From an uncultured Desulfobacteraceae bacterium (lineage in GTDB: Bacteria; Desulfobacterota; Desulfobacteria; Desulfobacterales; Desulfobacteraceae), in NCBI GenBank assembly GCA_913041495.1, contig CAJWHT010000006.1, forward strand, positions 1 to 63,710: a stretch of DNA of 63,710 nt. Reading direction: 5' to 3'. The position numbers were made by a program, and so were the translations under genes. The notes below the pieces were generated by a model, which was not told the DNA's origin, searched no databases, and saw only the letters and a program-made list of their open reading frames with translations. Positions 336 to 37,024 of the stretch are shown here, in pieces. Each line of letters starts with the position of its first letter. Position 1 is the stretch's first letter.

Positions 336-3300
336 CAGCAGCACCAGGGTGAGCACGGTGGCAAAGGCCACACCGAATGCCAGGGAAATCCCCATGGGGA
401 TAAGCTGCCGGGCGTGCTGGCTGGTTTCCAGGATCAGCGGCAGAAGACCGCCCACAGTGGAGATGGAGGTGAGCATAACCGCCCGGAACCTGCGCACACC
501 GCCCTGGTAGATGGATTCAAAAAAAGACATCCCCTCTTCCAGGTTCATGTTAATCCGTTCAATGAGCACGATGGCATCGTTAACCACCACACCGGCCAGG
601 GCCACCATCCCGAAAATTGACAGCAGTGACAGCATGTGCCCCATGATGAAATGGCCCAGCACCGCTCCCACCAGCCCGAAAGGAATGGTGGTGAGGATAA
701 GAAAGGGCTGGACGTAGGAACGGAACATGGTGGCAATGATGGCGTACATGCCCATGATCGAGATGGGAATCCAGATATAAAGACTGCCGAAAGATTCCGC
801 CGACCGTTTGGCATCCCCCTCCAGGACCATACGCATCCCGGGGTAGTCCCTTTCGATCTCCTGAAAGACACTCCGGTTAAGCTCGCCGATGACTTCACCG
901 GCCACCACTTTTGCCGTATCCACTTTTGCCGATACCATGATCTGGCGGAGGCCGTCCTTGCGGGTAATGGTTGAATACCCCGGCTCCAGAGAGAGGTCGG
1001 CAACAGTTTCCAAAGGAATCCATGCACCCTCATCGGTTTTAATCAGCAATTCCCCGATGGAATCCCGGGTGGCACGTTCCGCTTCCGACAGCCGGACGTA
1101 GACCTTTACTTCATCGTTGTCCCGCTGGATTTCAAGGGCTTTAGCCCCATAGTACGCCGTGTAGATCTGGGTGGCCAAGTCGGACAGGCTAACGCCTAAA
1201 TATTCGGCTTCGGGACGGATCGTGAACTTGAGTTCGTTTTTTCCCGGGGCGTTGTCCGAATAGACCTGGGAAACCCCGTCTATGGTTTTGAGCCGGGCCA
1301 TGATCAGGTCCGCGGCATCGGACATTTGGTTGAGGCTTTGTCCCTGGAGACAGATCTCCACAGGCGCCCCCGGAGGGCCGCTGTTGGAGGCGGTATAATC
1401 CAGGGACTGGGTGCCTGGGATGGTCCCTGTGGCCGCTTCCCAGGCCGTAATAAAGTCATCCGAATGGACCCCGCTGTCACCGGGATCAATCAGGGAAACC
1501 CGGACTCCGCCTTTATAAGGAGAAGAGTTGTCAGAGCGGCCTTCGGTACCGCCCGCCCCCTGGCCCACGGTGGCAAGGGTATTTTCAATAAGCGGTTCCC
1601 CTGTGAGCGTAACAAATGATTTTGCCGCCTTCCGGGCTGCGGTTTCAAGGCGGTTCACCGCCGCTTCGGTCACGGCAAATGGGGTGCCCTCCGGAAATTC
1701 CACCGTTGCCACAATGATATCCGAGGCCTGCTTCGGAAATACGTTGAACTTGATGAACCCGCCGGACACAAGCCCCGTACAGAGCAGCAATACCGTAAAG
1801 CAGAGGCTGGCAAAAAAATACCTGTACCGGACACAAACCTTGAGCAGGGGCAGATAAACCTTTTGGGCGGCATACTCCATTCCCGCAACGCTTCGGTCAT
1901 GGAAACGACGAATCATTGCCCTGACGGGGTTCTCTTTTTTGGGGGTATCGGTCAATTCGGAAAGCGTTGACAGATGGGCCGGCAGCATCACCATACACTC
2001 CACAAGGGAAACCAGCAGGCAGGCGATAACAGCCGTGGGCAGGGCCACAATGAACTTTCCCATCATCCCGTCAATATGATACAGGGGGAAAAAAGCCACC
2101 ACCGTTGTAAATATGGCCGCCAGCACCGGCAGCCCCACTTCCGACACCCCTTTTACAACGGCATCCAGGGGGGCTTCCCCGTTTTTCCGGTGATAGTAAA
2201 TGGATTCTCCCACAACAATGGCATCATCTGCTACAATGCCCAGCACCATGATCAGACCGAAAAGGGTAATCTTATTAAGGGAGATTCCGGAAAAATGGAC
2301 GATGGCCAGCCCCCCCAAAAGAGATATAGGAATGCCCATGCCTGCCCAGAATGAAACGCGAGTATCCATAAACAGCCAGAGGAGAATAAACACCAGCACA
2401 AGCCCCATCGCAGCATTGGCATACAGGGTGGAAAGATTGGACCGGGTGCTTTCGGTGTTGTCGGACAAAATGAGGATCTGTGACCCGCCCGGCATTTTTT
2501 CATTGGTCTCCTCCTGAAATTTCCGTACCTGGTCTGCGATACGGATGGTATCTTCTTCCCCCGCAAGTACATTGAGCAGAACGGCAGGGCGGCCGTTGGC
2601 CCGGACGGACAGGTTGTCCTGGGTAAACCGGTCTTTTATTTCTGCAATATCCCGGAGATAAAGTGTGCGACCGTCCGGTTCGGAAATGATTTTTATGTTT
2701 CCCAGTTCCTGCCCCGTGTATTTTCGTCCGATGGTCCGCAGGCGAATATCCCCGGCAGACGTTCTCAAAGTACCGCCGGACTGGTTCAGGCTGTTTTCTG
2801 CGATAATATCGGCCACATCCCGGATGCTTAAGGCATACTTGTGCAGGGTATCCTGGGAGATTTCCACGGAAATCTCATAGGCCCGGGTGCCGGACAGATT
2901 CACCTGGCTGACACCGGGCAGCCGCATGATCTCTTTTTGGATTGTATCGGCCCACTCTTTGCGCCTGGCCTCGTCCATATCACTGACAAGTCCCAGGCCC
3001 ATCACCGCTTTCTGGATGGAGGGCCTCACCACGGACGGCTTTTCGGCGTCATCGGGAAAAGAGGAGATGCTGTCCACCTCGTTTCTGACCCGATCCAGGA
3101 GGCGGTCGGCATCGTAGCCGTCGGTGACGGTGATGGTTGTGGACGCAGCCCCTTCCGAAGCGGTTGACGTATATTCGTCAATGCCCTCAAGACCGTCTAT
3201 GGCATCCTCCACTTTACGGACAACCCCCTCTTCCACCTCCTCCGGGTCTGCCCCGGGGTAGGAGACACTGATCACGATGGTATCCAGTTCCATTTCCGGC

Positions 3301-3410
3301 ATGTCTTCACGCACCATGACCGAACCGGCCAAAAGACCTGCCATCAGAAAGACCACCATGGCCAGGTTGGCAAAAACCGGATTCTTCGCAAAGGCTTTAA
3401 TCAGGTTCAT
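1..3410 (-). CDS. RND multidrug/metal efflux permease (AcrB/HAE1 family), frame open at window edge
   Basis: Inner-membrane proton-driven efflux pump of a tripartite RND system. The start is ATG at 3410, overlapping the TGA of the adaptor gene (ATGA, 3407-3410), so the two are translationally coupled. The translation begins [20 protein letters not shown] (TM1), followed by a first periplasmic loop with [14 protein letters not shown], the central TM block with the paired aspartates in [11 protein letters not shown] that mark the TM4 proton relay, and the second periplasmic loop. The C-terminal TM block has [14 protein letters not shown] and ends near [12 protein letters not shown]. The RND part is about 1025 residues, close to the usual length. 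The reading frame has no stop and continues into an rsmG-like sequence below about position 335 (separate entry), so the true C-terminus, normally 10-20 more residues, is missing. Substrate cannot be told from sequence. Confidence 0.88.
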
Positions 3411-4807
3411 TTTATGATCCCTCCCGACCCAGGCTGGGTGGCGGCCAGTTTATCTCCGGGCTCATCATCAGCCCCATTGTCCGTTAAGGCCAGGCGGGCG
3501 TTTTCCATGGGATTGGTCAGGGGGGTGGTGATGATCCGGTCACCGGGAAGAAAATCGCCAGAGATCCAGACAGAATCCTTACCGGAGGTTTCCCGGACGA
3601 CTGGAAGTGTCTTTAGTTTTCCGTCCCGTGCCAGATAAACCGTATCGTCGGCGTTCAATGATCCGGCAGGTATTTTCACCACACCGGAAACCGACCGGGC
3701 GGACAGGTAAAGTTTGCAGAACATGCCTTCCAGCAGGGGCATACCCTGAACCTCTCCATTCTTCGGTCTTTCAACACGAACGGCCAGGTAGAGGGTCCGG
3801 GATGCGTCGTCGTACCGCACTGCCCGGTGAACCGTTGCCGTCATGGCAGCATAGGCCTTTCCGGTAACCGTCTCCAGACGGCATTCCACGGCGTCCAGTC
3901 CGGATATCCATCCGCCGGCACGGCTTCCCCTGTCACCTGCCCCGGCCCGCAGCCTCAGCGTGTCAAAGGCATCCCTGTCACTCAGGGGCACCTTGATTTC
4001 CAGCATTGAATCATCGGTGAGGGTCAGGGCTAAGGTCCCCGTGGACACATAGGTGCCGGCATCAACGGCCACGTCCTGAACCCTGCCGGAAAAAGGCGCA
4101 CGTATGGTGCATCTTGCAAGGTTCAGCCCGGCGGTTTTCAGATCGGCCTTGTCCCGTGCCAGATCGCTCAGGGCCTCTTTGATCTGAAGGGGATAAAGCG
4201 AAATGGTCTTGATCAGACTCTTTTCCGTATCCAGGCACAAATTGTAATCCTGCTCAGCCGCTTCCACATCAGACAGGGTGCCCACCCGGTCTGTTTCGTA
4301 CAGGGTTTTCAGTCGGGTATATTCCGTTTTGGATAGAAGGGTGCTTCGTTGCAGCGCAGCAAGCCTGTCGTTGTCCCGCTCCAGGGAGACCCGGTACTGG
4401 GCTATGGTGTTCTCCGTCAGCCTCACCTGCGCTGCGGCCTTGTCCCGCTCGATGGCATAACCGGTATCGTCTATTTTGAGAAGAATTTCCCCTTCCGGGA
4501 CGATTCCCCCCTGCTCCAGGGCCGGGTGGATGTCAACGATATTGCCGGACACCTGGGGACAGATATCCAGTACCCGGACGGCTTCGGCCTGGCCGTATCC
4601 CACTGCGGTCAGGCGGACTGTTTCTGTTTTCACCGGAAGGGTGGATACGGCAAGCCCTTTGTTTTGAAACGGTTTTTCCGCCGGCGGCCGTTTTGAAGTT
4701 GCCATCTTGTGCATACCGAAAACACCTGTGGCAATAATCAGAAAACAGACCAATCCTGTGACAATGATCGTTACCTTGGCAGGACGGGCATCAGGCGTGT
4801 GGCTCAT
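3407..4807 (-). CDS. RND efflux periplasmic adaptor (membrane fusion protein, HlyD/AcrA family)
   Basis: Links the inner-membrane RND pump to an outer-membrane channel. The 466-residue protein has an N-terminal signal/anchor at about 11-30 ([20 protein letters not shown]), a lipoyl-type half-motif ([24 protein letters not shown]), a long alpha-hairpin rich in Lys/Glu/Gln between about residues 125 and 225, the second lipoyl half ([25 protein letters not shown]), and beta-barrel/membrane-proximal domains. The start ATG at 4807 has AAGGA upstream. The gene is followed with a 4-bp overlap by the RND permease. No TolC-like gene is visible here. The Asp/Ala-rich C-terminal tail is probably unstructured. 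Confidence 0.9.
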
Positions 4808-4935
4808 GGGTATTCCTTATGGATATTCTGGTTATATGTCAGCTTTGCTTTGCCCCGAATATAGAAAACACCCCATCAACCGGATGTGAAATCAATGTCA
4901 AAAAAACGTGAATTGACAGATTTTTTCCCCCTGTC

Positions 4936-4965
4936 TTGACGATAGCGGGCAAATCCGGCTAGTAT
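4936..4965 (+). promoter_or_regulatory. Candidate sigma-70 promoter for the binding-protein/radical SAM pair
   Basis: TTGACG (4936-4941), an 18-bp spacer and TAGTAT (4960-4965) lie about 50 bp upstream of the ATG at 5013, in the divergent gap between the RND operon and the plus-strand genes. The -35 box matches 5 of 6 and the -10 box 4 of 6. This is a pattern match only. Confidence 0.4.
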
Positions 4966-5012
4966 GTGATAACCGATTTGTATTGACAATTTTTTTCCAA
5001 GGGAGGCAACGT

Positions 5013-5783
5013 ATGACCCGCCGTGTTTTTGCCGGTATACTTATAGCCCTTCTTCTGGCCCTGCCCCTATCCGCAACGGCCGCCGGCGCACCCGACGTCC
5101 AAAAGCAGATCAAAATGACCACCTGCAACTGGCAACCCTATGCCGGGGTCAACTTGACAAACCTAGGCTTTGCCTCCGAATTGCTGACGATCCTCTTCAA
5201 ACGGCTGGGATATGAGACGAAAATCGATATTCTTCCCTGGAAAAGAGCCATGATCTCAACCGCTCAGGGAAAGTATGACCTGGTCTATAACGCGTACTAC
5301 TCCAAAGAGCGGGCCGCTGAATTCGCCTTCTCAGATCCCTATATCCACAGCCGGGTCTATCTTTGCTCCAGAAAAGATGCCAATATCAGTTTTTCACGGC
5401 TGGAAGACCTGAAACCATACCGGATCGGGGTGGTGATGGGCTATGTCAATTCCCCGGAATTCGACCGGGCTGATTACCTTAAAAAAGACCAGGCCGTTAC
5501 CGATCTTCACAACCTGAAGAAACTGTTCGGCAAACGCCTGGACATGGTTGTGGTTGACAAGTACGTTGCGGTTCAGTTGATCAAAACCTCCCCCTTTCTC
5601 ATTGCCAACGTCACCGACCTTGTTTTTCACGAACCGCCCCTGATCAACATGCCCGTCCATGCCATGTTCTCCAGAAAGGTCCCGGGCTACAAAAAACGTG
5701 TGGCCCAATTCAACCGCGTGCTTTCGGAGATCATCGCCGACGGCACCTTTGATACATTATTGGAAATTCATCACTTCAAATAG
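5013..5783 (+). CDS. Periplasmic solute-binding protein, family 3 (amino-acid type)
   Basis: A 256-residue secreted protein. The start ATG at 5013 is chosen because GGGAGG lies 6 bp upstream and a classical signal peptide (MTRRVFAGILIALLLALPLS, then ATAAG) follows directly; an upstream in-frame ATG at 4983 would bury the signal. The mature part has the SBP_bac_3 layout: an opening beta-strand with CNWQPYAG, helix GFASELLTILFKRLGYETKI, then LPWKRAM and GKYDLVYNAYYSKERAAEF, and later YRIGVVMGYVNSPEF. No ABC permease or ATPase lies beside it, and it is followed 58 bp later by a radical SAM gene. It could be an orphan receptor or serve a transporter elsewhere. The ligand is unknown. Confidence 0.82.
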   Translation: MTRRVFAGILIALLLALPLSATAAGAPDVQKQIKMTTCNWQPYAGVNLTNLGFASELLTILFKRLGYETKIDILPWKRAMISTAQGKYDLVYNAYYSKERAAEFAFSDPYIHSRVYLCSRKDANISFSRLEDLKPYRIGVVMGYVNSPEFDRADYLKKDQAVTDLHNLKKLFGKRLDMVVVDKYVAVQLIKTSPFLIANVTDLVFHEPPLINMPVHAMFSRKVPGYKKRVAQFNRVLSEIIADGTFDTLLEIHHFK

Positions 5784-6827: not shown

Positions 6828-6901
6828 ATGTAGAGGAGAGGTCTCCTATCCGGCACACCGTTAGTTGAGGGAAGTGTACCGAAACTCTATATTTTTATGG
6901 G

Positions 6902-9058
6902 TTACTGCGGATACAGAATTTCCGCCAGATGGGCCACTTCAATATCCCGGCCCTGTTTCATGGCGCCGCCGCGAAGCTGCATCACGCAGCCCGGGCATTC
7001 CGTGACCAAAAGTTCCGCCCCGGATTTTTCCACATCGTCCAGCTTCTGGGTGAGGATCTCATTGGACACTGCAGGAAAATTGGCTGAAAAACTGCCGCCA
7101 AAGCCGCAGCAGGTTTCCTCTTCCGCCGTGGGTACGTAAGTATTGCCGGATTTGGCGATAACATCCTTTGGGGCTTCCCGTTCATCAAGGCCGCGGCACA
7201 GGTGACAGGGGGAGTGAAAGGCGATGGCTTTACCCGCCCCTGTTTTCTTATCAAGTCCCACCACGCCGGACATGAACTGGCTGTAGGACAACACCTTGTC
7301 TGCAAAAGCGGCCGCCCTGTCCGGTGCATAGTTTTTCAGAAGCTTGGGCGCCCCGTGCTTCAGATGGGAGGCACAGGAGGCGCAGAGGGTAACGATGTAG
7401 TCCACATCCTTTAACTCAAAGGCGTCCAGGTTCTGGAGGGCCACATCCCGGGCAGCGGATTTTTCCCCCATGCTGACAGCCGGCAGGCCGCAGCAGGACT
7501 GCCCCATGGGGAAGGTCACCGCTACATTTGCCTCCTGGAAGCCCCGCATGGCCGCCTCAAGCTGTTCCGGATATACAAAATCCTGAACACAGCCTGAGAA
7601 CAGGGCAATGCGATAGGCCGGGGCATGGACTTTCTTATTCAGGCCCTCGAACCGGTCCCGGAAGGGTTTTTCCGCGATGGCCGGCAGCCGCCGAAAGTTG
7701 TGCTCCGGCGAGAAAATCATGGGCAGATGCCGCAGGAAAGGTCCTTCTTTTGTCTTTTCCGTCATGGGTCCCTGGGCAAGCTTTGCCGTTCTCAACAGGG
7801 TGTGGAACAGCTTCCGGTTTTTCAGCACCTTGCCCAGCAACAGGCTCTGGAGGGGATGGCCCTCTTCGTCCTGTATTTTTGCGTGGACATCCTTGATCAA
7901 CCCCGGCAGGTCGATGCCGCCGGCACAGATGGATTTACAGGCACCGCAGTTCGTACAGTTCTGGACAAGGTTCTTGGCGTGCTCCCGGCCATGGAAAAAA
8001 TAAGTGGTGATCAGGCCGATGGCCCCGATATAGATGTAGCCGAGCTGATGGCCGCCCACCATCCGGTAGACCGGGCATACGTTGGCACAGGCCCCGCAGC
8101 GTACGCACTGGAGAATCTGGGCAAATACCGGATCTTTTGCAATTTTGCTTCGCCCGTTATCCAGGAAAACCAGGTGCATTTCCCGTTTGCCCCCTTCAAC
8201 GGTCTTGCATTCCGAAGGCCCGGTGATCCAGGTGACGTATGAGGTAATGGCCTGTCCGGTGGCATTTTTAGGCAGCACCTTGTTGACGGCCAGGGCCTCT
8301 TTTATGGTGGGTAAAAGCTTGTCGATTCCGGCCAGGGCCACATGGACCCGCGGCAGGGTGGAAACCAGGCGGGCATTGCCTTCGTTGGTGGCAATACCGA
8401 TGGTGCCGGTTTCGGCGATCACGTAATTGGCGCCGGTGATCCCCATGTCCGCCGTGACAAATTTTTCCCTCAGTTCTTTCCTGGCCACCTTGACCAGGCG
8501 CTGGATTTCAGCGTCCTGTTCTGTTCCGGTCACCGATGAAAAAAGGTCTGCCACCTGGTAGCGGGAAAGATGAATGGCCGGCATGACCATGTGGGAGGGG
8601 CCTTCCTTGCGGAGCTGGACAATCCATTCCCCCAGATCGGTTTCCGTCACTTCGAGGCCTTCGTTTTCAAGCCAGCGGTTAAGATGGGTCTCTTCCGCTG
8701 TCATGGACTTGGATTTAACGATGGATTTGCACCGGGTCTTTTTGGCGATCTCGGCAATAATCCGGTTGGCGTCTTCTGCGGTTTCCGCCAGGTGGACATG
8801 GATGCCGTTCTCTTTGGCCTTTTGTTTGAACGCCGCCAAAAGTTCCTGGTTCCGTATGACGGCATCCGCCTTCACATCGGCCACGGTCTGAATCAGTTCC
8901 GCCGTATCCATGCCAGAAAAGGCATTTTCGCGGGAGGTGCGGTAGGCCACGGCAAAATTATCCATGGCTTTGCGGAGGAATTCATTGCCCAGGGCATCGT
9001 CCAGCCGGTTTTTATACGCTTTTAGGCTTTCCGCCTTAGTTCCTTTTTCTCCGGACAT
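6902..9058 (-). CDS. L-lactate dehydrogenase Fe-S subunit, LutB-LutA (LldF-LldE) fusion
   Basis: Oxidises L-lactate to pyruvate together with LutC and passes electrons through Fe-S clusters. The 718-residue protein joins two subunits that are separate in Bacillus. Residues about 1-310 form the LUD domain of LutB (VIAETGTIGIATNEGN). Two 4Fe-4S motifs follow (Cys318/321/324/328 and Cys368/371/374/378). The C-terminal ~220 residues are LutA-like with two CCG domains (GQSCCGLPAVS and LCASCASHL; then SPCHLCRGL, CCGFGGSFS and CPGCVMQL). The same fused arrangement beside a lutC-like gene is known from the lactate-oxidising Desulfovibrio locus. The start ATG at 9058 is preceded by GAGGAA and lies 3 bp after lutC. 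Last gene of the TRAP-lut operon. Confidence 0.88.
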   Translation of the reverse strand: MSGEKGTKAESLKAYKNRLDDALGNEFLRKAMDNFAVAYRTSRENAFSGMDTAELIQTVADVKADAVIRNQELLAAFKQKAKENGIHVHLAETAEDANRIIAEIAKKTRCKSIVKSKSMTAEETHLNRWLENEGLEVTETDLGEWIVQLRKEGPSHMVMPAIHLSRYQVADLFSSVTGTEQDAEIQRLVKVARKELREKFVTADMGITGANYVIAETGTIGIATNEGNARLVSTLPRVHVALAGIDKLLPTIKEALAVNKVLPKNATGQAITSYVTWITGPSECKTVEGGKREMHLVFLDNGRSKIAKDPVFAQILQCVRCGACANVCPVYRMVGGHQLGYIYIGAIGLITTYFFHGREHAKNLVQNCTNCGACKSICAGGIDLPGLIKDVHAKIQDEEGHPLQSLLLGKVLKNRKLFHTLLRTAKLAQGPMTEKTKEGPFLRHLPMIFSPEHNFRRLPAIAEKPFRDRFEGLNKKVHAPAYRIALFSGCVQDFVYPEQLEAAMRGFQEANVAVTFPMGQSCCGLPAVSMGEKSAARDVALQNLDAFELKDVDYIVTLCASCASHLKHGAPKLLKNYAPDRAAAFADKVLSYSQFMSGVVGLDKKTGAGKAIAFHSPCHLCRGLDEREAPKDVIAKSGNTYVPTAEEETCCGFGGSFSANFPAVSNEILTQKLDDVEKSGAELLVTECPGCVMQLRGGAMKQGRDIEVAHLAEILYPQ

Positions 9059-28765: not shown

Positions 28766-28793
28766 CGGGCTGCAGACACCGGGCTACAGACAC
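28766..28793. repeat. 14-bp tandem duplication spanning the stop of the NifB-like gene
   Basis: cgggctgcagacac (28766-28779) is followed directly by cgggctacagacac (28780-28793). The single difference (g/a) falls in the TAG stop of the minus-strand gene: the downstream copy reads CAG. Confidence 0.7.
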
Positions 28794-29593
28794 CCCAGGG
28801 CATCCGACCGGCATCGTTTACAATGGTGCATCTGGGGGATATAATTGCCGGCGGCTTTCCTCAGATTCACCATCTGTCGCCGGGTGGGCGGCGTCACATC
28901 TTCCATTTCAGTTCCGGGAACCGGAATCAGGGGAATCAGGTTCATCAGATTCACCCCCATGGCACCGAACCGCTTTGCGATAAACAGGCTGTGATCGTCG
29001 TTGATGCCGGGGATAACCACCGTGTTTATCTTTACTGTGAAACCAAGCGTCAGCAAGGCTTCAACTGCATCCATCTGCCTTTGGATCAGCAGCCTTGCAC
29101 CGGCCTCCCCATGAACGGTTTTCCCGTTTAAGGTAACCGCTTTCACCAGCCTGGCACCGATGCGGGCATCAATGGCATTAATGGTTATGGTGACAAAATT
29201 TACCCCGAGATCATGGAGTGCCGCGGCATGGGCAGCCAGATTCAGGCCGTTGGTGGACACACAGAGGGACAGGTCAGGAAAGTGCTTTTGTATCAACTCA
29301 AAGGTCTTCAATGTCAGTTCTGGGCGGCTGAAGGCATCCCCGGGGCCTGCAATCCCGGCCACGCAGATATGGGGCTGATCTTCCAGTGCCCCTGCCAGGC
29401 GGTCCAGGGCAGCCTCCGGGGATATCACACAGCTTGTCACACCGGGCCTGTTTTCATGGGCGCAGTCATGGTCCCGCCGGCAGTATGCGCAACTGATATT
29501 GCAGGAGGATGCCACCGGCAGGTGGATACGGCCGAAAGCCGCCTTGTCTTTTGCAAAGAAACAGGGGTGGTGGGGCCGCATCTTAGGTATCAC
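28784..29593 (-). CDS. NifB-like radical SAM protein
   Basis: A 269-residue protein with the key features of the nitrogenase cofactor enzyme NifB. From a GTG start at 29593 (GGAGG 5 bp upstream, overlapping the previous stop as GTGA) it has the HPC motif at residues 9-11, the radical SAM CX3CX2C at Cys31/35/38 within LPVASSCNISCAYC, then ENRPGVTS and AGIAGPGDAFSRPEL. It ends with CKRCRSDALG (Cys258/261), the counterpart of NifB's C-terminal CX2CRxDAxG. No NifX-like domain is present. No nif structural gene lies in the window. The neighbours are a NapH-like polyferredoxin and a ModA-like binding protein. A longer ATG start at 29632 is possible. Confidence 0.85.
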   Translation of the reverse strand: MIPKMRPHHPCFFAKDKAAFGRIHLPVASSCNISCAYCRRDHDCAHENRPGVTSCVISPEAALDRLAGALEDQPHICVAGIAGPGDAFSRPELTLKTFELIQKHFPDLSLCVSTNGLNLAAHAAALHDLGVNFVTITINAIDARIGARLVKAVTLNGKTVHGEAGARLLIQRQMDAVEALLTLGFTVKINTVVIPGINDDHSLFIAKRFGAMGVNLMNLIPLIPVPGTEMEDVTPPTRRQMVNLRKAAGNYIPQMHHCKRCRSDALGCL

Positions 29594-30372
29594 GACTTCC
29601 TCCGGCCGAATTTTATGGCGTCTTCGGGACAAGCCTCAATGCAGTCCCCGCAGTTGGTGCAATTGGTTTCCTCAGGCCGGGTTCCCATACCGCAGACCTT
29701 TAAGCATTTGTTGCAGCCGTTGCAGTCACGGGTTTTATAGAATCTGAACAAGGGAAATCTGCCCAGCAGTTCCAGTACACCTCCGGTTGGACAGAAGAAT
29801 CGGCACCAAAGGTTGGCGAAAAACAGACCGGCAGCGGCGCAAGCCAAAACAAACACTGTCCGTGTCAGCCAAAATTGCGAGGCGTGTTCAAAGGTCAGAA
29901 GGGTTGAAGAAAAAAAGCCGCCGGTCCGGATGGGGATCGCCATCCTCGGCTGTCCCATGTACAGCCAGATATAAAGCACCAGGGCCAGGCCAATATATTT
30001 TCCGTAGGGCGCAGCCTTCAGCAGAAAAGAACGGGTCCGCATCCTAAAGGGGGCAATCTTGGCCCCCAGCCGGTTCACCAGACCTCCGGGGCAGGCCCAG
30101 CCGCAAAAGGCCCGGCCGAAAAGCAGCGCAGATAAAGGAAGCAGCAGCCAGAATCCCCAGAACATTGAAAAGAGCCTGCCATGACAGGTAATCACCGGGC
30201 AGTTCTGGCAACTTACATAGGGCACCACGAAGGGGCAACGAAAAATACCGTAGTAAGACCATTGCCCGAGGACCAGCAGCCCTGATACCTGTGTCAGCCG
30301 TCGCCACAGGCGGATACCGGTTGAAGAGACCGAGGCGGAAACGGAGGACGCACCGCTTGTGTTATCAGACAT
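29590..30372 (-). CDS. NapH-like membrane ferredoxin (polyferredoxin)
   Basis: A 260-residue integral membrane electron carrier with four or five helices. It has the motif CPFVVPYVSCQNCPVITCHG, two CX3CP motifs (FCGWACPGG; CRFFCPTGG) as in NapH/NosR/RnfE-type proteins, and two C-terminal 4Fe-4S ferredoxin motifs (CNGCNKCLKVC; CTNCGDCIEAC). It probably passes electrons from a quinone or periplasmic donor to cytoplasmic clusters. It overlaps the binding-protein gene by 8 bp and the NifB-like gene by 4 bp, so the three are translationally linked. An obvious role would be reducing power for the radical SAM enzyme; this is inference. Confidence 0.85.
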   Translation of the reverse strand: MSDNTSGASSVSASVSSTGIRLWRRLTQVSGLLVLGQWSYYGIFRCPFVVPYVSCQNCPVITCHGRLFSMFWGFWLLLPLSALLFGRAFCGWACPGGLVNRLGAKIAPFRMRTRSFLLKAAPYGKYIGLALVLYIWLYMGQPRMAIPIRTGGFFSSTLLTFEHASQFWLTRTVFVLACAAAGLFFANLWCRFFCPTGGVLELLGRFPLFRFYKTRDCNGCNKCLKVCGMGTRPEETNCTNCGDCIEACPEDAIKFGRRKS

Positions 30373-31243
30373 CTTTCACCCCCAGTCGTTCTGTCATTTC
30401 CTGTCCCTTATCGGATAGTGCCGGAATAAACCCGGCTGTTTCAAAAAAGGCCTGGCCTTCCGCCGAACAGATGAAATCCACGTAATGATCTGCCAGATCG
30501 GTATCGGCCGCAGCGTCCAGCACACCGATGGTAAAGGTTAAGGGCGGTGGCGGAAAATATTTTTCCGGGATGGGAATCACCTCGGCCATATCCTTGAATG
30601 CCGGCAGCTTCGTCACTCTTTTTTCCACCACCGAAACATCGCCGTCTCCTGAAATAAGTTGCTCCATGGTCCGCTGGACGCAGGATCCTTTAACCACGGC
30701 ATTGGCCATGGCCTTTTCCAGCACCCCCGCTTTTTTCAGGAGGCCGGACACCGCCTTGCCCCCCGGGGGCGAGGCCTGGGGAGCCAGAATCACCCGGACA
30801 CCATGCCTGCCAAGGTCATGGATTCCCTGGATACCACCAGGATTGCCCCGGGGTGTCACCAGCACATAGGAGGTAAAGCACAGCGGCTTGAAATAACGCA
30901 TCTTTCCGGCCTTGCGAAGCTTTTTGGCAAGATCCAGCACCCGTCCCCCAAACACTTCCGTTGTTGCAGAGCCCAAAAGGGATTTGCCAAGGGCGGCGGC
31001 AAAGGCCCCCGTATAGGCGATATCAACACCTGACATTTCCGAGAACCTTTTGTTCGCCGGTATAAAGGCCTCTGCCAGTCCGCCACAGGACCATACCTGC
31101 AGACGGGACTGTTTAAAAACACGCTCCGCCCGGCCCGTTCCCGGCATCATTGACGCCCCGGCAGCGGCACTGGCAGCGGCACCGGCAGAGGCCTTCAAAA
31201 ATCCCCGGCGGCTTAAACCGGAGGGGTTCAACTGCTCATCCAT
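30365..31243 (-). CDS. Tat-exported ModA-like substrate-binding protein
   Basis: A 292-residue periplasmic protein. ATG 31243 (AAAGGAAA upstream) starts a protein with the twin-arginine signal LSRRGFLKASAGAAASAAAG. The mature part has the layout of oxyanion/molybdate-type binding proteins: LQVWSCGGLAEAFIP, a Ser/Thr-rich ligand loop near LLGSATTEVFGG, FTSYVLVTPRGNPGG, and the C-terminal DHYVDFICSAEGQAFFETAG. No ABC permease or ATPase is adjacent. Instead it is translationally coupled to a membrane polyferredoxin and a NifB-like enzyme. Tat export suggests folding or cofactor loading before secretion. The ligand could be molybdate, tungstate or another metal species; unproven. Confidence 0.78.
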   Translation of the reverse strand: MDEQLNPSGLSRRGFLKASAGAAASAAAGASMMPGTGRAERVFKQSRLQVWSCGGLAEAFIPANKRFSEMSGVDIAYTGAFAAALGKSLLGSATTEVFGGRVLDLAKKLRKAGKMRYFKPLCFTSYVLVTPRGNPGGIQGIHDLGRHGVRVILAPQASPPGGKAVSGLLKKAGVLEKAMANAVVKGSCVQRTMEQLISGDGDVSVVEKRVTKLPAFKDMAEVIPIPEKYFPPPPLTFTIGVLDAAADTDLADHYVDFICSAEGQAFFETAGFIPALSDKGQEMTERLGVKDV

Positions 31244-31521
31244 ACTTTTTTTCCTTTCGTATCCGAACCTGTGCACTGTGTAATTTGGTTGTCTTTTTTA
31301 GTGGAATCTTCCCATGTGAACCAATTGTTTGTTCTGATGGAGAACCTGCAACCGAATTGAAAATATCGATACAACATACTGGGATTACCTCACAGGTTCC
31401 GGCAGGTGAATGCCATTTTCCTTTTCCCCACCGTTTAAATTTCTTTTTTTATGATTACCTTCTGTGGTAAATTTTGGATTGTGCACCTAATCTATTCCTA
31501 CGAAAACTTGAGGATGATTCC
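31244..31521. other. Divergent intergenic region, no feature defended
   Basis: 278 bp between the ModA-like and pepA genes, AT-rich. I see a small inverted repeat TTACC-ttctgt-GGTAA (31455-31470) and a Gly/Pro-codon-free stretch around 31370-31425 with several short complementary segments, but no convincing promoter pair and no riboswitch I can name. Confidence 0.4.
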
Positions 31522-33078
31522 ATGAAGAAAGACCGCATTACCACGACGAATAAAGCCGCTGATACATTCAAAACAGATCTTCTGGTTTATCTTGCAGTTG
31601 AGGCAGGCAAAAAGATGCCGCTGTGTCCCGACGCAGTAAAGTCCCAGGTAAAAAAAGCCTTTGAGCTGAAAGATTTCCAGGGAAAAGCCTCTGAACAGCT
31701 GTCCTTCTACCCCCCGGCCAAGGCATCCGCCAAGCGGGTCATGGTCCTGGGGCTCGGCGATCTGAAAGGGGAAAAGGATCTGCCACTGGCCCTGGACGCC
31801 CTGAGAGAATCCGGCGGACACCTGGCCAAGGCTGCAGAAAAAGCCAATGCAAAGGAAATGGTTGTTGTCCTGCCGGATGCAAAACATCTGTCACCGGGGG
31901 TGCCCGATCTTCCTTCGGCTGCCGAAGCCATTGCAGAGGGCGTGATCCTCGGGGATTACCGATTTACAAAGTATAAGGAAAAAACCAGGAAAAAAACCGA
32001 CTATCCCGGATTGTCCGGGGTGAGGTTCGTCTGTGACGGGGAACTTAACGCCGTTCGGGCCGGTGTGACCCGGGGTAAAAATGCAGCCTTTGCCGCCTGT
32101 TCAGCCAGGGATATGGCCAACGAACCGGGCAACGGCTGGACCTCGGCAGACTTTGCCACCTGGGCCAAAATACTTGCCAAGGATACCGGCCTTGCCTACC
32201 GGTGCATTGAAAAAAAAGAAATGGAAACCCTCGGCATGGGCGGCATTCTCGCCGTGAACCAGGGATCCGCAGTGCCCCCCCGGCTGGTGGTTCTGGAATA
32301 CCGGCCCGAATCCGCAACCGAAACCATCCTTTTGGTTGGAAAAGGCCTGACCTTTGACTCCGGCGGCATCAGCATAAAACCTGCGGCAAGTATGGAGGAT
32401 ATGAAGTACGATATGTGCGGCGGTGCCGCAGTGCTCTCTGCCATGCAGGCCGTGGCCGAGGAAAAGCCGGATGTGGCGGTTGTGGCCGTTGTTCCGGCCA
32501 CGGACAACATGTCGGGCAGCAATGCCGTCCACCCCGGGGACATCATCCGCCATTACAACGGTGTAACCTCTGAAATCATCAACACAGATGCAGAAGGGCG
32601 GCTGATCCTGGCAGATGCCTTATCCTGGGGCATCGAAACCTACAAGCCCACCTGCGTGGTTGATGCGGCCACCCTCACAGGCGCCGTGATCATCGGCCTG
32701 GGCCATCACTACACCGGGCTTATTTCCAACAACGACGCATTGTCCGAACAGGTGATTGAGGCCGGCCGTATGTCAGGGGAGCCTTTATGGCGTCTGCCCC
32801 TGGACAAACATTTCAAAAAACAGATCGAGTCCAAGGTGGCGGACATCAAGAACACGGGCGGCCGGCCCGGCGGTACGATTACGGCAGGGGCCTACCTGTC
32901 CAACTTTGTGGACGACACGCCCTGGATTCACCTGGACATTGCCGGCACCGCCTGGGATTTCACGGAAAAAGCCTATATCCCCAAAGGCCCTTCCGGCACA
33001 GCCACCCGGACCTTCATTAACCTGATACGGCACTGGAAAACCGGCAAAGTACGCCCGGCAAAAGACGCAAAGAATTAG
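31522..33078 (+). CDS. pepA: Leucyl aminopeptidase, M17 family
   Basis: A 518-residue cytoplasmic metallopeptidase releasing N-terminal residues from peptides. ATG 31522 (GAGG upstream) is preferred over an ATG 16 codons earlier. The N-terminal macro-like domain (~1-180) is followed by the M17 catalytic domain: LVGKGLTFDSGGISIKPA with metal-binding Lys and Asp, then MKYDMCGGAAV and the family signature NTDAEGRLILADAL. A normal length and all catalytic residues suggest an active enzyme. It precedes a moxR gene by 11 bp. Confidence 0.95.
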   Translation: MKKDRITTTNKAADTFKTDLLVYLAVEAGKKMPLCPDAVKSQVKKAFELKDFQGKASEQLSFYPPAKASAKRVMVLGLGDLKGEKDLPLALDALRESGGHLAKAAEKANAKEMVVVLPDAKHLSPGVPDLPSAAEAIAEGVILGDYRFTKYKEKTRKKTDYPGLSGVRFVCDGELNAVRAGVTRGKNAAFAACSARDMANEPGNGWTSADFATWAKILAKDTGLAYRCIEKKEMETLGMGGILAVNQGSAVPPRLVVLEYRPESATETILLVGKGLTFDSGGISIKPAASMEDMKYDMCGGAAVLSAMQAVAEEKPDVAVVAVVPATDNMSGSNAVHPGDIIRHYNGVTSEIINTDAEGRLILADALSWGIETYKPTCVVDAATLTGAVIIGLGHHYTGLISNNDALSEQVIEAGRMSGEPLWRLPLDKHFKKQIESKVADIKNTGGRPGGTITAGAYLSNFVDDTPWIHLDIAGTAWDFTEKAYIPKGPSGTATRTFINLIRHWKTGKVRPAKDAKN

Positions 33079-33089
33079 GGGGGAGCTTC

Positions 33090-34007
33090 ATGTCCCAGGC
33101 AGTAGAGACCATGGTGGACCAGGTGTCCAGGGTGATATTGGGCAAGCGCTACGAAATCCGGCTGGCCCTGGCCTGTTTTTTTGCCCGGGGGCATCTTCTC
33201 ATTGAAGATTTCCCCGGCATCGGCAAAACCACCCTGGCCAAAACCCTGGCCCGGTGCATGGGCCTCAAATTCCAGCGGATGCAGTTCACCTCGGACCTGC
33301 TTCCCGGGGATATTCTGGGCATGTCTGTGTTCGATCAGAATACCGCCAGCTTTGCCTTTCATCCCGGCCCGGTGTTCACCCAGGTTTTTCTTGTGGATGA
33401 GATCAACCGGGCCACACCCAAAAGTCAAAGCGCCCTGCTGGAAGCCATGGAGGAGGGCCAGGTCACCATTGAAGGGGAGACTCGCCCCCTGGAAACGCCC
33501 TTTTTCGTCATCGCCACCCAAAACCCCCTGGAGCAGGCCGGCACCTTTCCCCTGCCCGAATCCCAGATGGACCGGTTTCTTATGCGCATATCCCTGGGAT
33601 ACCCGGACCGGGAGGCGGAACGGCGCATTCTCACCGGGGAGGGCAGCAACGGCATCATGGAAACCATCGACAACTGCATGGCCCTGAACGATGTAGTAAA
33701 CATCCAGAATGAGGTGGCCAATGTCCATGCCTCCGACCATTTTCTGACCTATCTTCAGGATATCCTTGAATTTACGCGGACATCCCCGGAGTTCCAGATC
33801 GGCCTGTCCCCCAGAGCAGGCCTTGCCCTGCTCAGTGCATCCCGGGCCTGGGCCTATATCCTGGGCAGGGACTACACCCTGCCGGAAGATCTCCAGGAGA
33901 TTCTTCCCTGGACCGCCGGCCACCGCCTGAAACTGAACCGGGATCTTGGCCACCTGCAACGGGAAAAACTCATGGAGATCTTCAGCAAGGTTCCCGTACC
34001 TGTGTGA
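33090..34007 (+). CDS. MoxR-family AAA+ ATPase
   Basis: A 305-residue AAA+ chaperone. Walker A is in EDFPGIGKTTLAKTLA, Walker B in VFLVDEINRATPKSQSALLE, the sensor-1 region is FFVIATQNPLEQAGTFPLPE with the MoxR-typical DRFLMRISLGYP, and the lid domain ends with TAGHRLKLN. MoxR proteins act with DUF58 and VWA or transglutaminase partners. Here the DUF58 and transglutaminase genes follow directly, forming the standard trio. Confidence 0.93.
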   Translation: MSQAVETMVDQVSRVILGKRYEIRLALACFFARGHLLIEDFPGIGKTTLAKTLARCMGLKFQRMQFTSDLLPGDILGMSVFDQNTASFAFHPGPVFTQVFLVDEINRATPKSQSALLEAMEEGQVTIEGETRPLETPFFVIATQNPLEQAGTFPLPESQMDRFLMRISLGYPDREAERRILTGEGSNGIMETIDNCMALNDVVNIQNEVANVHASDHFLTYLQDILEFTRTSPEFQIGLSPRAGLALLSASRAWAYILGRDYTLPEDLQEILPWTAGHRLKLNRDLGHLQREKLMEIFSKVPVPV

Positions 34008-34034
34008 CGGATCAGGCCCAGTTGGTGGCATAAA

Positions 34035-34937
34035 ATGACGGGTATACAAAAAAAAGACCTCACCATCCGGCCCACCCAGCACGGCTATCTGTTCCTGGGT
34101 ATCCTGGTGGCAATGCTCCTGGGTTCCATCAACTACAACAACAATGCAGGGTTTATTCTTGTTTTCCTCCTGGGGGGGATGGCTGTCATCTCCCTATTCC
34201 ACTCGTTCAAAAACCTTACTGGACTTGTTTTCATTCCACATCCGGTACATCCTGTGTTTAAAGGGGAATCCATCATATTCCCGGTGGAAATAAAAGGAAA
34301 CCAGGGCCAGGCCCAGTCCCTGTTCTTAAGTATTAAAAATGCAGATCCGGTTCATTTTTCCCTGTCCGGATCAAATGCCCGGACCGCAGATCTAAAACTG
34401 CCGGCATCACGGCGGGGGGTCATTCACATTAAGAACATTCTTTTGACCTCGGTGTACCCTTTCGGGCTGTTCCGGCTTAAGGCGGTCATCCCCTTTAGTG
34501 CCGAAGGCATTGTCTACCCGGCCCCGGAACCCGGCACATTTCCTTTGGGATTTGCAGGAGAGGATGATGACGGGGAAGAAACCAGCCGCCACATGGGCCC
34601 CGACGATTTCCAGGGCCTGAAACCCTATATTCCGGGCAACCCGATAGGCCATATCGCCTGGAAAACCCTGTCCCGGGGCCAGGGGCTCTTTGTCAAAGAT
34701 TTCACGGCGGATGCGGGAAGGGATATACTCATTGACATCAATCTGATGGGGCAGGGGGATATCGAGACCAAACTGTCCATGATCTGTCACAAACTGCTTT
34801 CGTCAGAGACCCTGGGGGTACAATACGGACTGCGGCTGGGGTCATCTTTTTCCACCCTTCCTGCCGGGGGAAAACCACATCTTCACCGGTGCCTGGAAGC
34901 CCTGGCCCTTTACAATCCGCCGGGAGATGACACATGA
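34035..34937 (+). CDS. DUF58 domain membrane protein
   Basis: A 300-residue protein with two close membrane helices (about 17-60; LFLGILVAMLLGSINYNNNA and IVLVFLLGGMAV-like segment) and a C-terminal DUF58 segment, seen as MGPDDFQGLKPYIPGNPIGH followed by IAWKTLSRGQGLFVKDF. It is the usual partner of MoxR ATPases. The biochemical function is unknown. Its stop overlaps the following transglutaminase gene by 4 bp (ATGA). Confidence 0.85.
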   Translation: MTGIQKKDLTIRPTQHGYLFLGILVAMLLGSINYNNNAGFILVFLLGGMAVISLFHSFKNLTGLVFIPHPVHPVFKGESIIFPVEIKGNQGQAQSLFLSIKNADPVHFSLSGSNARTADLKLPASRRGVIHIKNILLTSVYPFGLFRLKAVIPFSAEGIVYPAPEPGTFPLGFAGEDDDGEETSRHMGPDDFQGLKPYIPGNPIGHIAWKTLSRGQGLFVKDFTADAGRDILIDINLMGQGDIETKLSMICHKLLSSETLGVQYGLRLGSSFSTLPAGGKPHLHRCLEALALYNPPGDDT

Positions 34938-37024
34938 GACACATCTTCCCGCGATTATCCTTGCGCCTAAGCCCCCCTCAAGATCCGCCCGAAGACCGGC
35001 TGACGCTCCCCGGCCTTTCGGCGTCTGACCGAGAACGCCGGGATACGGTGCCCATCATCATAGCCCTGGTGGTGGCCATTGCCCCCCATGTTCCAGGCCT
35101 TCCGCTCTGGATCACCGCCTGGTGCATTTTGATGTGGGGATACACCCTGATCCGGCTGAAAACCGGGTGGCCGCTGCCAAGGCCTCTGTTCTGTTACCTG
35201 CTCACCTTTTTTGCCATCATCGGGCTGCTGGCCAACTACCGGCTGGCCATCGGTGCGGATGCATTTGTGGGGCTGATGTCGCTCATGGCAGCCATCAAGC
35301 CCTTTGAAATGCCCACCCACCGCCACAAGATGATCACTATCCTGCTGACCTATTTTATCATCATCACCTCCCTGTTCCGGTCGGATTCCATTTTCATCGT
35401 TCTTTACATGCTGTTCAGCGTCTTTGTCACCACCCTGGCCATGATCCGGATCAACGCCCCGGACCGGGATTTTTCCCACAGCCGCAACCTTTCCGCAAAG
35501 ATACTGGCCCAGGCCGTCCCCCTTGTCATGGTGCTGTTTCTGGTCTTCCCAAGACTGCCGGAAAGCCTTGTGGGGGTCCAGGATCCCAGCCAGGGGAAAT
35601 CGGGGTTCTCCGAAAGCCTGAAGCCCGGACAGATTTCCAACATGGCCCTGGACCAGACACCGGCATTCCGGGTGGAGTTTCAATCCGGCATCCCGCGGCC
35701 GGATCAATTGTACTGGCGGGGCGTGGTGTTTCAGGACTTTGACGGCCTGACCTGGCGTCCCCTTGCCGGCAGCAGATTTTTACCCCTGGGCAAAAACCCT
35801 GATACTTCGGACAGCGGGATAACGGCCTATACCATTCTCATGGCCCCCCACAACAGCCACTGGCTGATGGCCTTGGACCGCCCGGTGAAGGGCCCGAGAT
35901 GGGCTGTGGTGGGCCGGGACCGAAGTCTGCGGGCCAGGATTAAAATCACAAAGAAAACCCAGTACCAGGCCTTCTCGCGTTTGCCCGGCAGCCGTCAACG
36001 ATCCTTGGAGCCCCCCAGGATCGGAAAAGACGAACGGAACGCGGCATATAAGCTTCGATCCACCATTGACAGGTTTAAGCACCTTAACCCCAAAACACGG
36101 AGCCTTTCCCGGGAAATCACGGCAAAAACGGCAACACCTTCCGAAAAGGCTGCGGCCCTGCTCTCATTTTTCAAGGAAAACAATTTTGTATACTCCCTGA
36201 GCCCGGGCCGGTCAGGTCCCCATCCCATTGATGATTTCATCTTTAACAGCCGCAGAGGGTACTGCGAACACTACGCCTCGGCCTTTGCGTTCATGATGAA
36301 TGCCGCGGGCGTACCTGCCAGGGTGGTGGGGGGATACCTGGGCGGGGAATTTAACCCCTACGGCGGGGATCTCATCGTCCGGCAGTCTTATGCCCATGCC
36401 TGGACCGAATACTTTGACGACACCCGGGGATGGATCAGGGTGGATCCCACCGGGACGGTTGCGCCTGAACGACTGACCGTCAACCCGGACGGCTCCTCCC
36501 CCCGGGCATTGACAGGAGATGTCTCCGGCATTTCATTTATCACAAAGACAAGGTTTGCCCTGGACGCCGTGAACCTTCGGTGGGAGTCCTGGTTCACCGG
36601 CTACTCCTATTTTGACCAGCAGGCCTGGCTCAATACCCTGGGCCTTTTCAAGGGGAACAGGGCCACCACCGCCGCCCTCATCCTGCTGACCATTACCGGC
36701 CTGTGTATCTTTTCAGCCGTTCTGGCCTGGCAGTTCCGCAGAAAAAAGCCGCAGCAGGACCCGGTGGCTGACGCCTATGAAACACTCAGGAAAAAATTAT
36801 CCGGGGCGAACCTTGTCCCGGAGGCGGGCCAGGGGCATGTGGCCTTCCTGAAAGGGAGTATGGCCAAACGCCCCGATCTGGCGCCGGAAATCTCAAAGAT
36901 CATGGATCTCTACGTGAGTCTCCGGTATAAAAGACAAGCCCCGGCATCGGCACTGGCCGAGTTCAGGCAGCGGATAAAACGGTTCCGGCCGAAACTATTC
37001 CCCAAAACAAAGGAAAGAGATTGA
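34934..37024 (+). CDS. TgpA-type membrane transglutaminase-like protein
   Basis: A 696-residue protein with an N-terminal bundle of six or so membrane helices (~35-210), a periplasmic DUF3488-like segment, the transglutaminase core and a last helix (~585-605) followed by a cytoplasmic DUF4129-like tail. The catalytic triad is visible: Cys in RRGYCEHYASAFAFMM, His in QSYAHAWTEYFD and Asp in RVDPTGTVAPE. The MoxR-DUF58-TgpA order is conserved in many bacteria. It may process or cross-link periplasmic proteins. The substrate is unknown. Confidence 0.9.
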   Translation: MRHIFPRLSLRLSPPQDPPEDRLTLPGLSASDRERRDTVPIIIALVVAIAPHVPGLPLWITAWCILMWGYTLIRLKTGWPLPRPLFCYLLTFFAIIGLLANYRLAIGADAFVGLMSLMAAIKPFEMPTHRHKMITILLTYFIIITSLFRSDSIFIVLYMLFSVFVTTLAMIRINAPDRDFSHSRNLSAKILAQAVPLVMVLFLVFPRLPESLVGVQDPSQGKSGFSESLKPGQISNMALDQTPAFRVEFQSGIPRPDQLYWRGVVFQDFDGLTWRPLAGSRFLPLGKNPDTSDSGITAYTILMAPHNSHWLMALDRPVKGPRWAVVGRDRSLRARIKITKKTQYQAFSRLPGSRQRSLEPPRIGKDERNAAYKLRSTIDRFKHLNPKTRSLSREITAKTATPSEKAAALLSFFKENNFVYSLSPGRSGPHPIDDFIFNSRRGYCEHYASAFAFMMNAAGVPARVVGGYLGGEFNPYGGDLIVRQSYAHAWTEYFDDTRGWIRVDPTGTVAPERLTVNPDGSSPRALTGDVSGISFITKTRFALDAVNLRWESWFTGYSYFDQQAWLNTLGLFKGNRATTAALILLTITGLCIFSAVLAWQFRRKKPQQDPVADAYETLRKKLSGANLVPEAGQGHVAFLKGSMAKRPDLAPEISKIMDLYVSLRYKRQAPASALAEFRQRIKRFRPKLFPKTKERD

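Follow-up and report, generated by a model that had tools for sequence, protein, structure and literature searches.

NifB is regarded as a core nitrogen-fixation gene. The closest described case of NifB-related cofactors at work outside nitrogenase is the methyl-coenzyme M reductase (MCR) activation complex (McrC, Mmp7), for which the available part of PMC12176620 describes L-cluster-like electron carriers outside the Nif family, with two His, two Cys, or one of each as ligands, and reports that NifB is essential in methanogens even without nitrogenase genes. Within the Nif family, NifB-co on NifE has two Cys ligands and positively charged surroundings (PMC13128457, in the portion available), and L-cluster-bound NifB and NifEN reduce N2 without ATP (accessible text of PMC13245594). 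Here we describe an operon in a 63,710-nucleotide (nt) stretch of DNA from an uncultured Desulfobacteraceae bacterium (contig CAJWHT010000006.1; 'the window', the full length of which supplies the position numbering) that encodes a protein with the substrate-binding-protein fold of ModA and a twin-arginine translocation (Tat) signal (hereafter 'SBP'), a NapH-like membrane ferredoxin ('NapH'), and a NifB-family radical S-adenosylmethionine (SAM) enzyme, the three genes together being termed the 'trio'. The trio resembles the MCR activation complex in the candidate non-Nif setting of its cluster and in the presence of NifB in organisms without nitrogenase; as far as the same part of PMC12176620 goes, the archaeal complex is ATP-driven and has MCR as its partner, whereas the trio is bacterial and joins a Tat-exported SBP fold to a NapH-type membrane protein. 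On balance, we favour the reading that the operon is a nitrogenase-independent NifB system in which the SBP carries a NifB-made cluster, is exported by Tat, and has NapH as its redox link.

The three genes lie on the minus strand within 28784-31243, in the order SBP, NapH, NifB-family gene, and each overlaps the next, the SBP and NapH genes by 8 bp (ATGTCTGA) and the NapH and radical SAM genes by 4 bp (GTGA, the latter gene having a GTG start; Table 1). The 8-bp overlap is present in 43 of 53 loci in which it was measured, with starts picked by script, and this recurrence indicates that the overlap is not due to chance. A single-sequence scan of genome contigs with the NifB-like protein found no relatives, and an alignment of seven SBPs served instead, yielding 52 loci (one of them, L109, a fragment with no full match, left out), which with the window and five loci from the same genus make 57 SBP loci. 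These loci span Thermodesulfobacteriota, Bacillota (Sporomusa, Anaerospora, Megasphaera), Campylobacter concisus, Acidobacteriota, and Phycisphaerae; a search of plasmids with the SBP gave no match. NapH is the next gene after the SBP in 54/57 loci, and the three exceptions (L067, L070, L104) are loci whose sequence stops at the SBP or no more than about 200 bases from it. Neighbouring genes were found by six-frame search; a clustering of neighbours gave mostly shadow frames. A NifB homologue stands directly downstream of NapH in 28/57 loci (downstream type), directly upstream of the SBP in four (upstream type; L079, L089, L095, L099), and 6-7 kb away on the opposite strand in two (L064, L085); no NifB is seen in the examined stretch of the remaining 23, six of which end at or near a contig edge on the relevant side. 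The upstream-type NifB and the SBP of L089 share one open frame without a stop, and a fusion is there indistinguishable from an internal start. We conclude that the link between the genes is well supported.

The SBP also occurs sparsely in Campylobacterales, with SBP in 5 and NifB in 74 of 298 genomes. NifB stands directly behind NapH in four of the five carriers, three of them (G143, G804, G834) with near-identical C. concisus-type copies and the fourth being G691. The fifth carrier, G772 (locus L252), has an SBP split by a stop, a NapH reduced to a 39-residue stub, and no NifB found, and looks like an operon decaying as a unit.

A phylum sample of 395 genomes, drawn irrespective of these genes, contains the SBP in 16 genomes and NifB (E 1e-40 or better) in 110. 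NifB is present in 16/16 SBP carriers, which span 11 families, and in 94/379 other genomes (Fisher p 5.7e-10, uncorrected for kinship). It is adjacent in 11 of the 16 carriers, nine times downstream with room for NapH and twice directly upstream; the remaining five have NifB elsewhere together with NifDKEN-family genes. We searched for PF00148, which covers NifDKEN and relatives, in 80 of the 110 NifB-positive genomes, comprising 38 with a sub-cut-off NifB, the 16 SBP carriers (6 shared with the 38), and 32 others; the 30 left out all have a NifB above the cut-off. PF00148 (E 1e-10) is absent from four of the 80 (G345, G352, G354, and G398; 93-99% complete), all of them SBP carriers with an ordered trio, and is present in 64/64 tested non-carriers (Fisher p 0.0012). 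We conclude that, among the genomes tested, every NifB without a NifDKEN-family partner accompanies SBP and NapH.

The genomes selected by SBP give a corresponding picture. NifB (E 1e-15 or better) is found in 54/57 genomes of this set, or in 53/56 SBP carriers when G007 is excluded, where a NapH fragment lies near a contig start and no SBP was found (L105, from the same species as L103, was left out of the genome searches). No PF00148 match (E 1e-5) is found in 14/57 genomes. Twelve of these 14 have NifB, at a single locus each, and the locus adjoins the SBP in 11; the exception is G124, in which NifB extends to a contig end and the SBP begins at base 4 of another contig. An earlier note on the window had proposed a non-nitrogenase pathway, and the comparative tests support that idea, as the set occurs without nitrogenase; of the outcomes it had named as speaking against the proposal, carriers prove not always to have nif genes (14/57 genomes without a NifDKEN-family match), the trio is not confined to one strain (57 SBP loci over several phyla), and a place of its NifBs inside true NifB is not borne out by the trees, which set them, with moderate support, apart from nif NifBs (below). 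The note's argument from the absence of nif genes in 63 kb carries no weight: the window's host has a nifH-like gene, four PF00148 (NifDKEN-family) genes, and a full-length nifB on another contig, C26, so that their absence from the window is uninformative, and by gene content the host is a probable nitrogen fixer.

The window's radical SAM protein contains the HPC, CX3CX2C, AGPGD, and CX2CRxDAxG motifs and has no NifX domain. It shares these features, with AGPGD or AGPGE, and its radical SAM core with standalone archaeal NifB (TIGR01290; structures 6y1x, 7bi7, 7jma), from which it differs in having SBP and NapH instead of nif genes in its operon and in its moderately supported place in a separate, neighbouring group of the tree. 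The TIGR01290 nifB profile (441 positions) aligns with it from position 11 to 276 and scores 274.7 bits, under the cut-off of 343.65; among the other trio members one exceeds that value (C. concisus, 351.5 bits); the match to the NifB structure 6y1x scores 226 bits. Measured against its nearest named enzyme or carrier family, each of the three window proteins scores under the curated NCBIfam cut-off. The ligands of Methanosarcina acetivorans NifB are, in the part of PMC6053413 available, Cys50/54/57 for the SAM cluster, Cys30/63/129 and a His for K1, and Cys264/274/277 for K2. Their counterparts by our own residue mapping, H9, C11, C31, C35, C38, C44, C111, C258, and C261, are invariant in 25/25 full-length trio NifBs, including that of the window (three partial sequences, L061, L074, and L081, being excluded from this count and from the NifB tree); no counterpart of Cys264 is seen in the window protein, nor in aligned 6y1x or 7bi7. 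A tree of 89 NifB domains, two of them archaeal rows as in the second tree, places the downstream-type NifBs in one group beside nif NifBs of Thermodesulfobacteriota (support 96/71 with L129 included), with the window, on a long branch, in a 12-row subgroup (97/95), and places the four upstream-type NifBs in a distant clade (100/99). A second, quick tree, in which L129 (the C. concisus trio copy, first labelled nif) is relabelled and counted as trio and the long-branched L056 is removed, keeps all 25 trio NifBs together on the same side of one branch (SH-aLRT 80). Attachment to the same SBP-NapH pair has thus happened in two distant NifB lineages, and this points to a functional need.

The SBP is a ModA-like protein with distinctive, conserved additions. 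It matches SBP_bac_11 (141 bits, profile search) and a Tat signal (TIGR01409, 24.6 bits versus a cut-off of 16.7), and its AlphaFold2 (AF2) model (pLDDT 87.7, pTM 0.81) has a ModA fold, with 4kd5 as the best structural match (Z 25.5, root-mean-square deviation 2.1 over 225 residues, 21% identity). It has that fold in common with ModA (4kd5 and others) and differs in its three invariant cysteines, its Tat signal, and a score of 30.7 bits against the ModA family TIGR01256, below the curated cut-off of 62.5; ModA operons, moreover, have the ModB/ModC permease and ATPase, whereas the gene next to the SBP is NapH. Residues R12, R13, C53, C122, and C188 are invariant across 57/57 aligned SBPs and were found by motif in 8/8 phylum-sample carriers outside this set, with NapH next in each. 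By comparison, 0/11 ModA paralogues from carrier genomes (11 sequences from 10 loci, weaker matches left out) have Cys at the three cysteine columns, some being gapped nearby. K87, R101, and R209 are likewise invariant in the 57-row alignment. The family is sharply bounded, its members scoring at least 415 bits versus 97.5 for the next paralogue in 20 carrier genomes. In the secondary structure assigned to the model (DSSP), strand 1 ends at C53, C122 lies close to where a later strand ends, and C188 immediately precedes a helix; together with the alignment to ModA and general knowledge of the fold, this suggests that the three cysteines face the ligand cleft.

The NapH-like protein has two CX3CP sites and two C-terminal [4Fe-4S] motifs (Fer4 matches), the latter conserved in 53/53 sequences. 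It has these features in common with the NapH/MauN ferredoxin family TIGR02163, to which it scores 64.3 bits (curated cut-off 213.05), and differs from that family in its SBP-fold partner and in an N-terminal CX8CX2CX4C motif, invariant in 54/54 sequences, which lies before the second hydrophobic segment. The positive-inside rule weakly predicts a periplasmic position for this motif, the first membrane segment being below threshold. Among solved structures, relatives of NapH were limited to two weak ferredoxin-like matches. The earlier note's account of the parts holds in most respects: its coordinates and overlaps were verified, NifB motifs without a NifX domain are borne out by the sequence and by the range of the TIGR01290 match, the ModA-like, Tat-exported reading agrees with the model and the signal score, and the coupling to a membrane electron carrier recurs in 54/57 loci. 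Its receptor without an ABC partner also stands, as no such partner is seen at a constant place near the SBP among the neighbour matches listed, where one ABC ATPase group touches six loci at varying places. Its suggestion of a metal or oxyanion receptor handing over its ligand fares less well, since the invariant Cys trio and conserved Tat motif better fit a carrier of the NifB cofactor than a feeder of NifB.

Proteins exported by Tat cross the membrane folded, and often carry their cofactors by then. According to the reading we favour, the NifB-family enzyme would fuse [4Fe-4S] clusters in the cytoplasm by radical SAM chemistry, and its product would, because of the conserved ligand set, most likely be the same [8Fe-9S-C] cluster that nif NifB makes, or a similar Fe-S cofactor. 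The SBP would take up this cluster in its inter-lobe cleft through Cys53, Cys122, and Cys188, would then fold, and would be exported, loaded, by Tat. On the periplasmic side, NapH would exchange electrons between the quinone pool and the SBP cluster through its Cys motif and ferredoxin sites, so that SBP, NapH, and NifB would constitute a small membrane-linked redox enzyme system; genomes without an adjacent NifB would use a NifB encoded elsewhere. What we observe is the coupling of the genes, their spread, the co-occurrence with NifB, the occurrence in genomes lacking nitrogenase, and the conservation of the cysteines and the Tat motif; the NifB product, its binding by the SBP, the topology, and the direction of electron flow we infer. 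Where a NifDKEN-family client is absent, the SBP is the sole constant, Cys-bearing, non-membrane partner of NifB, which, with the precedents, suggests that it carries the NifB product, and its invariant K87, R101, and R209 may be set beside the positive surroundings of NifB-co on NifE (PMC13128457, same portion). More tentatively, the operon may encode a bacterial extracytoplasmic redox enzyme with a carbide-centred [8Fe-9S-C] cluster in an SBP fold, which its own NifB would load in the cytoplasm before Tat export and which NapH would connect to quinones.

Several observations weigh against this proposal. Three genomes of the SBP-selected set, all metagenome-assembled, show no NifB (G107, G110, G141); the contig ends at the SBP in G107 and G110, and G141 does have PF00148 genes. 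At least seven carriers other than the window occur in both the phylum sample and the SBP-selected set. The window SBP has a fourth Cys past residue 35, and exactly three occur there in 23/53 SBPs, the rest having four or five, which leaves room for a disulfide. The suggested cleft placement of the three cysteines is read from DSSP and the ModA alignment, and Tat export alone is no proof of a cofactor. Cys44 is lacking in 4/4 upstream-type NifBs, so that their product could differ, and support for the trio-NifB group is moderate (96/71; SH-aLRT 80). The SBP frame of G691 (locus L253) is broken behind the Tat signal, though NifB is present and the three genes are in order. In the SBP tree (from which L067, L105, and L109 were left out) neighbouring carriers occur both with and without adjacent NifB. 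Absence of nitrogenase goes with adjacent NifB in the untreated table (11/12 versus 20/38, p 0.014; six contig-end loci omitted), and the tree-paired test gives 1.1 pairs for, 0 against, and 4.9 with no difference; we therefore do not rely on the statement that lack of nitrogenase predicts adjacent NifB, since the test on the SBP tree could not decide.

An alternative near the earlier hand-over idea is that SBP and NapH are NifB accessories that bring metal, oxyanion, or electrons inward for the nitrogenase cofactor. The presence of NifB in all 16 phylum-sample carriers, the NifDKEN-family genes of 43/57 carriers (three with weak or few matches only), the nif-type NifB lying 6-7 kb from the SBP in two Solidesulfovibrio loci, and the ModA fold would all suit such a role. 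We nevertheless regard it as unlikely: the 14 carriers without a NifDKEN-family match would have a NifB with no known consumer, the SBP is absent from 94/110 NifB genomes, the neighbour matches listed contain no ABC partner at a constant place, and uptake needs neither Tat export nor three cysteines.

Distinctly unlikely, in our view, is that the radical SAM enzyme modifies the SBP, for example at Cys, or makes something different from [8Fe-9S-C], in which case the SBP would work, once modified, as a sensor or redox protein; the SBP cysteines do occur together with the radical SAM gene and one K1 Cys is missing in upstream-type enzymes, but downstream-type enzymes retain every conserved NifB cluster ligand (25/25), and where the adjacent gene is lacking, a NifB elsewhere in the genome is a possible stand-in. 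We give still less credence to the possibility that the trio NifB serves a client encoded elsewhere, such as a double-cubane protein, with SBP and NapH in a separate role. Double-cubane reductase genes (NF040772, 456-496 bits versus 350) stand beside the trio in L255, L257, and L258, in genomes without a NifDKEN-family match, and phmmer matches to such genes, without an NF040772 check, lie within about 7 kb of the SBP in L067, L078, and L079; five of these six genomes lack PF00148, and that of L079 has two matches. Most trio loci, however, show no double-cubane gene in the stretch examined (the rest of the genomes was not searched), whereas SBP and NapH are constant partners.

The trio thus represents a conserved bacterial system that accompanies NifB where a nitrogenase-family protein was not found, which suggests that the NifB cofactor may have a further function besides nitrogen fixation. 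Its parts belong to known families at the level of fold or superfamily, and the system would be categorically new provided that it acts as a client of NifB beyond the Nif family; the bound cluster itself is predicted. A full-text literature search, with subscription journals mostly outside its coverage, gave among the entries listed no description of NifB together with NapH and a substrate-binding protein. If the cluster indeed resides on the exported protein, the nitrogenase precursor cluster would have one more biological role beyond the Nif family, and for the first time one outside the cytoplasm; a highly complex Fe-S cofactor would then work in a minimal, ATP-free, quinone-linked setting, and the SBP and its NifB would offer a small, separable NifB-client pair for studying carbide insertion and the origin of nitrogenase. 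Carriers of the SBP include the cultured genera Sporomusa, Anaerospora, and Megasphaera.

Table 1. Features of the trio in the window, and double-cubane reductase genes at three other loci (numbered within each locus)
Feature	Position	Strand	Basis
SBP-fold protein, ModA-like, with Tat signal; first gene of the operon	30365..31243	minus	292 aa; profile matches and AF2 model
Tat twin arginine R12-R13 (SRRGFLK)	31205..31210	minus	TIGR01409 above cut-off; RR conserved
SBP invariant Cys53	31085..31087	minus	alignment of 57; motif in 8 more; no Cys in 11 ModA paralogues
SBP invariant Cys122	30878..30880	minus	alignment of 57; motif in 8 more; no Cys in 11 ModA paralogues
SBP invariant Cys188	30680..30682	minus	alignment of 57; motif in 8 more; no Cys in 11 ModA paralogues
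NapH-like membrane ferredoxin, 260 aa	29590..30372	minus	profile matches; next after SBP in 54/57 loci
NapH C46-X8-C-X2-C-X4-C motif, predicted periplasmic	30184..30237	minus	54/54; side from hydropathy and positive-inside count
NapH C-terminal pair of [4Fe-4S] motifs, C217-C248	29629..29724	minus	53/53; Fer4 matches
NifB-family radical SAM enzyme lacking a NifX domain (269 aa, GTG start)	28784..29593	minus	groups with other trio NifBs
H9-P-C11	29561..29569	minus	invariant; Cys11 aligns with K1 ligand Cys30 of M. acetivorans NifB; His9 likely the His ligand
CX3CX2C radical SAM motif, C31-C38	29480..29503	minus	invariant
C258-X2-C261, match to K2 ligands Cys274/Cys277	28811..28822	minus	invariant; residue mapping from our own alignment
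Double-cubane reductase genes, L255 (G354)	2998-4278, 6831-7973		NF040772
Double-cubane reductase gene, L257 (genome of L108)	3407-4699		NF040772
Double-cubane reductase gene, L258 (genome of L072)	4423-5697		NF040772

An Rfam search of the window gave nothing at the gathering threshold. Next to the operon, at 31474-37024, lies a divergent gene that we take, by eye, to be leucyl-aminopeptidase-like, followed by genes that are presumably MoxR-, DUF58-, and transglutaminase-like. Neighbours at a minority of loci include YedE- and YedF-like proteins, rhodanese, MauE/DoxX, molybdopterin oxidoreductase, and the double-cubane reductase, and are weak hints to the substrate. A YedE-type putative selenium transporter occurs near seven loci, downstream of the trio in L082, L088, L092, and L073 and nearby in L065, L066, and L083; that of L088, the only one of these proteins scanned, matches TIGR04112 at 438 bits. 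A YedF gene in L255 (7999-8613) matches TIGR03527 at 202 bits (one protein scanned). L064, L075, and L085, from Solidesulfovibrio/Desulfovibrio, have SBP and NapH without an adjacent trio NifB, and the genome of L085 has a ModA-like paralogue about 2 kb from the SBP and a nif-type NifB about 6 kb away. Four genomes of the window's genus (G010, G015, G018, G004) have NifB and PF00148 genes twice, at distant chromosomal sites and with scores that are equal or nearly so, which resembles a duplication of the nif cluster.

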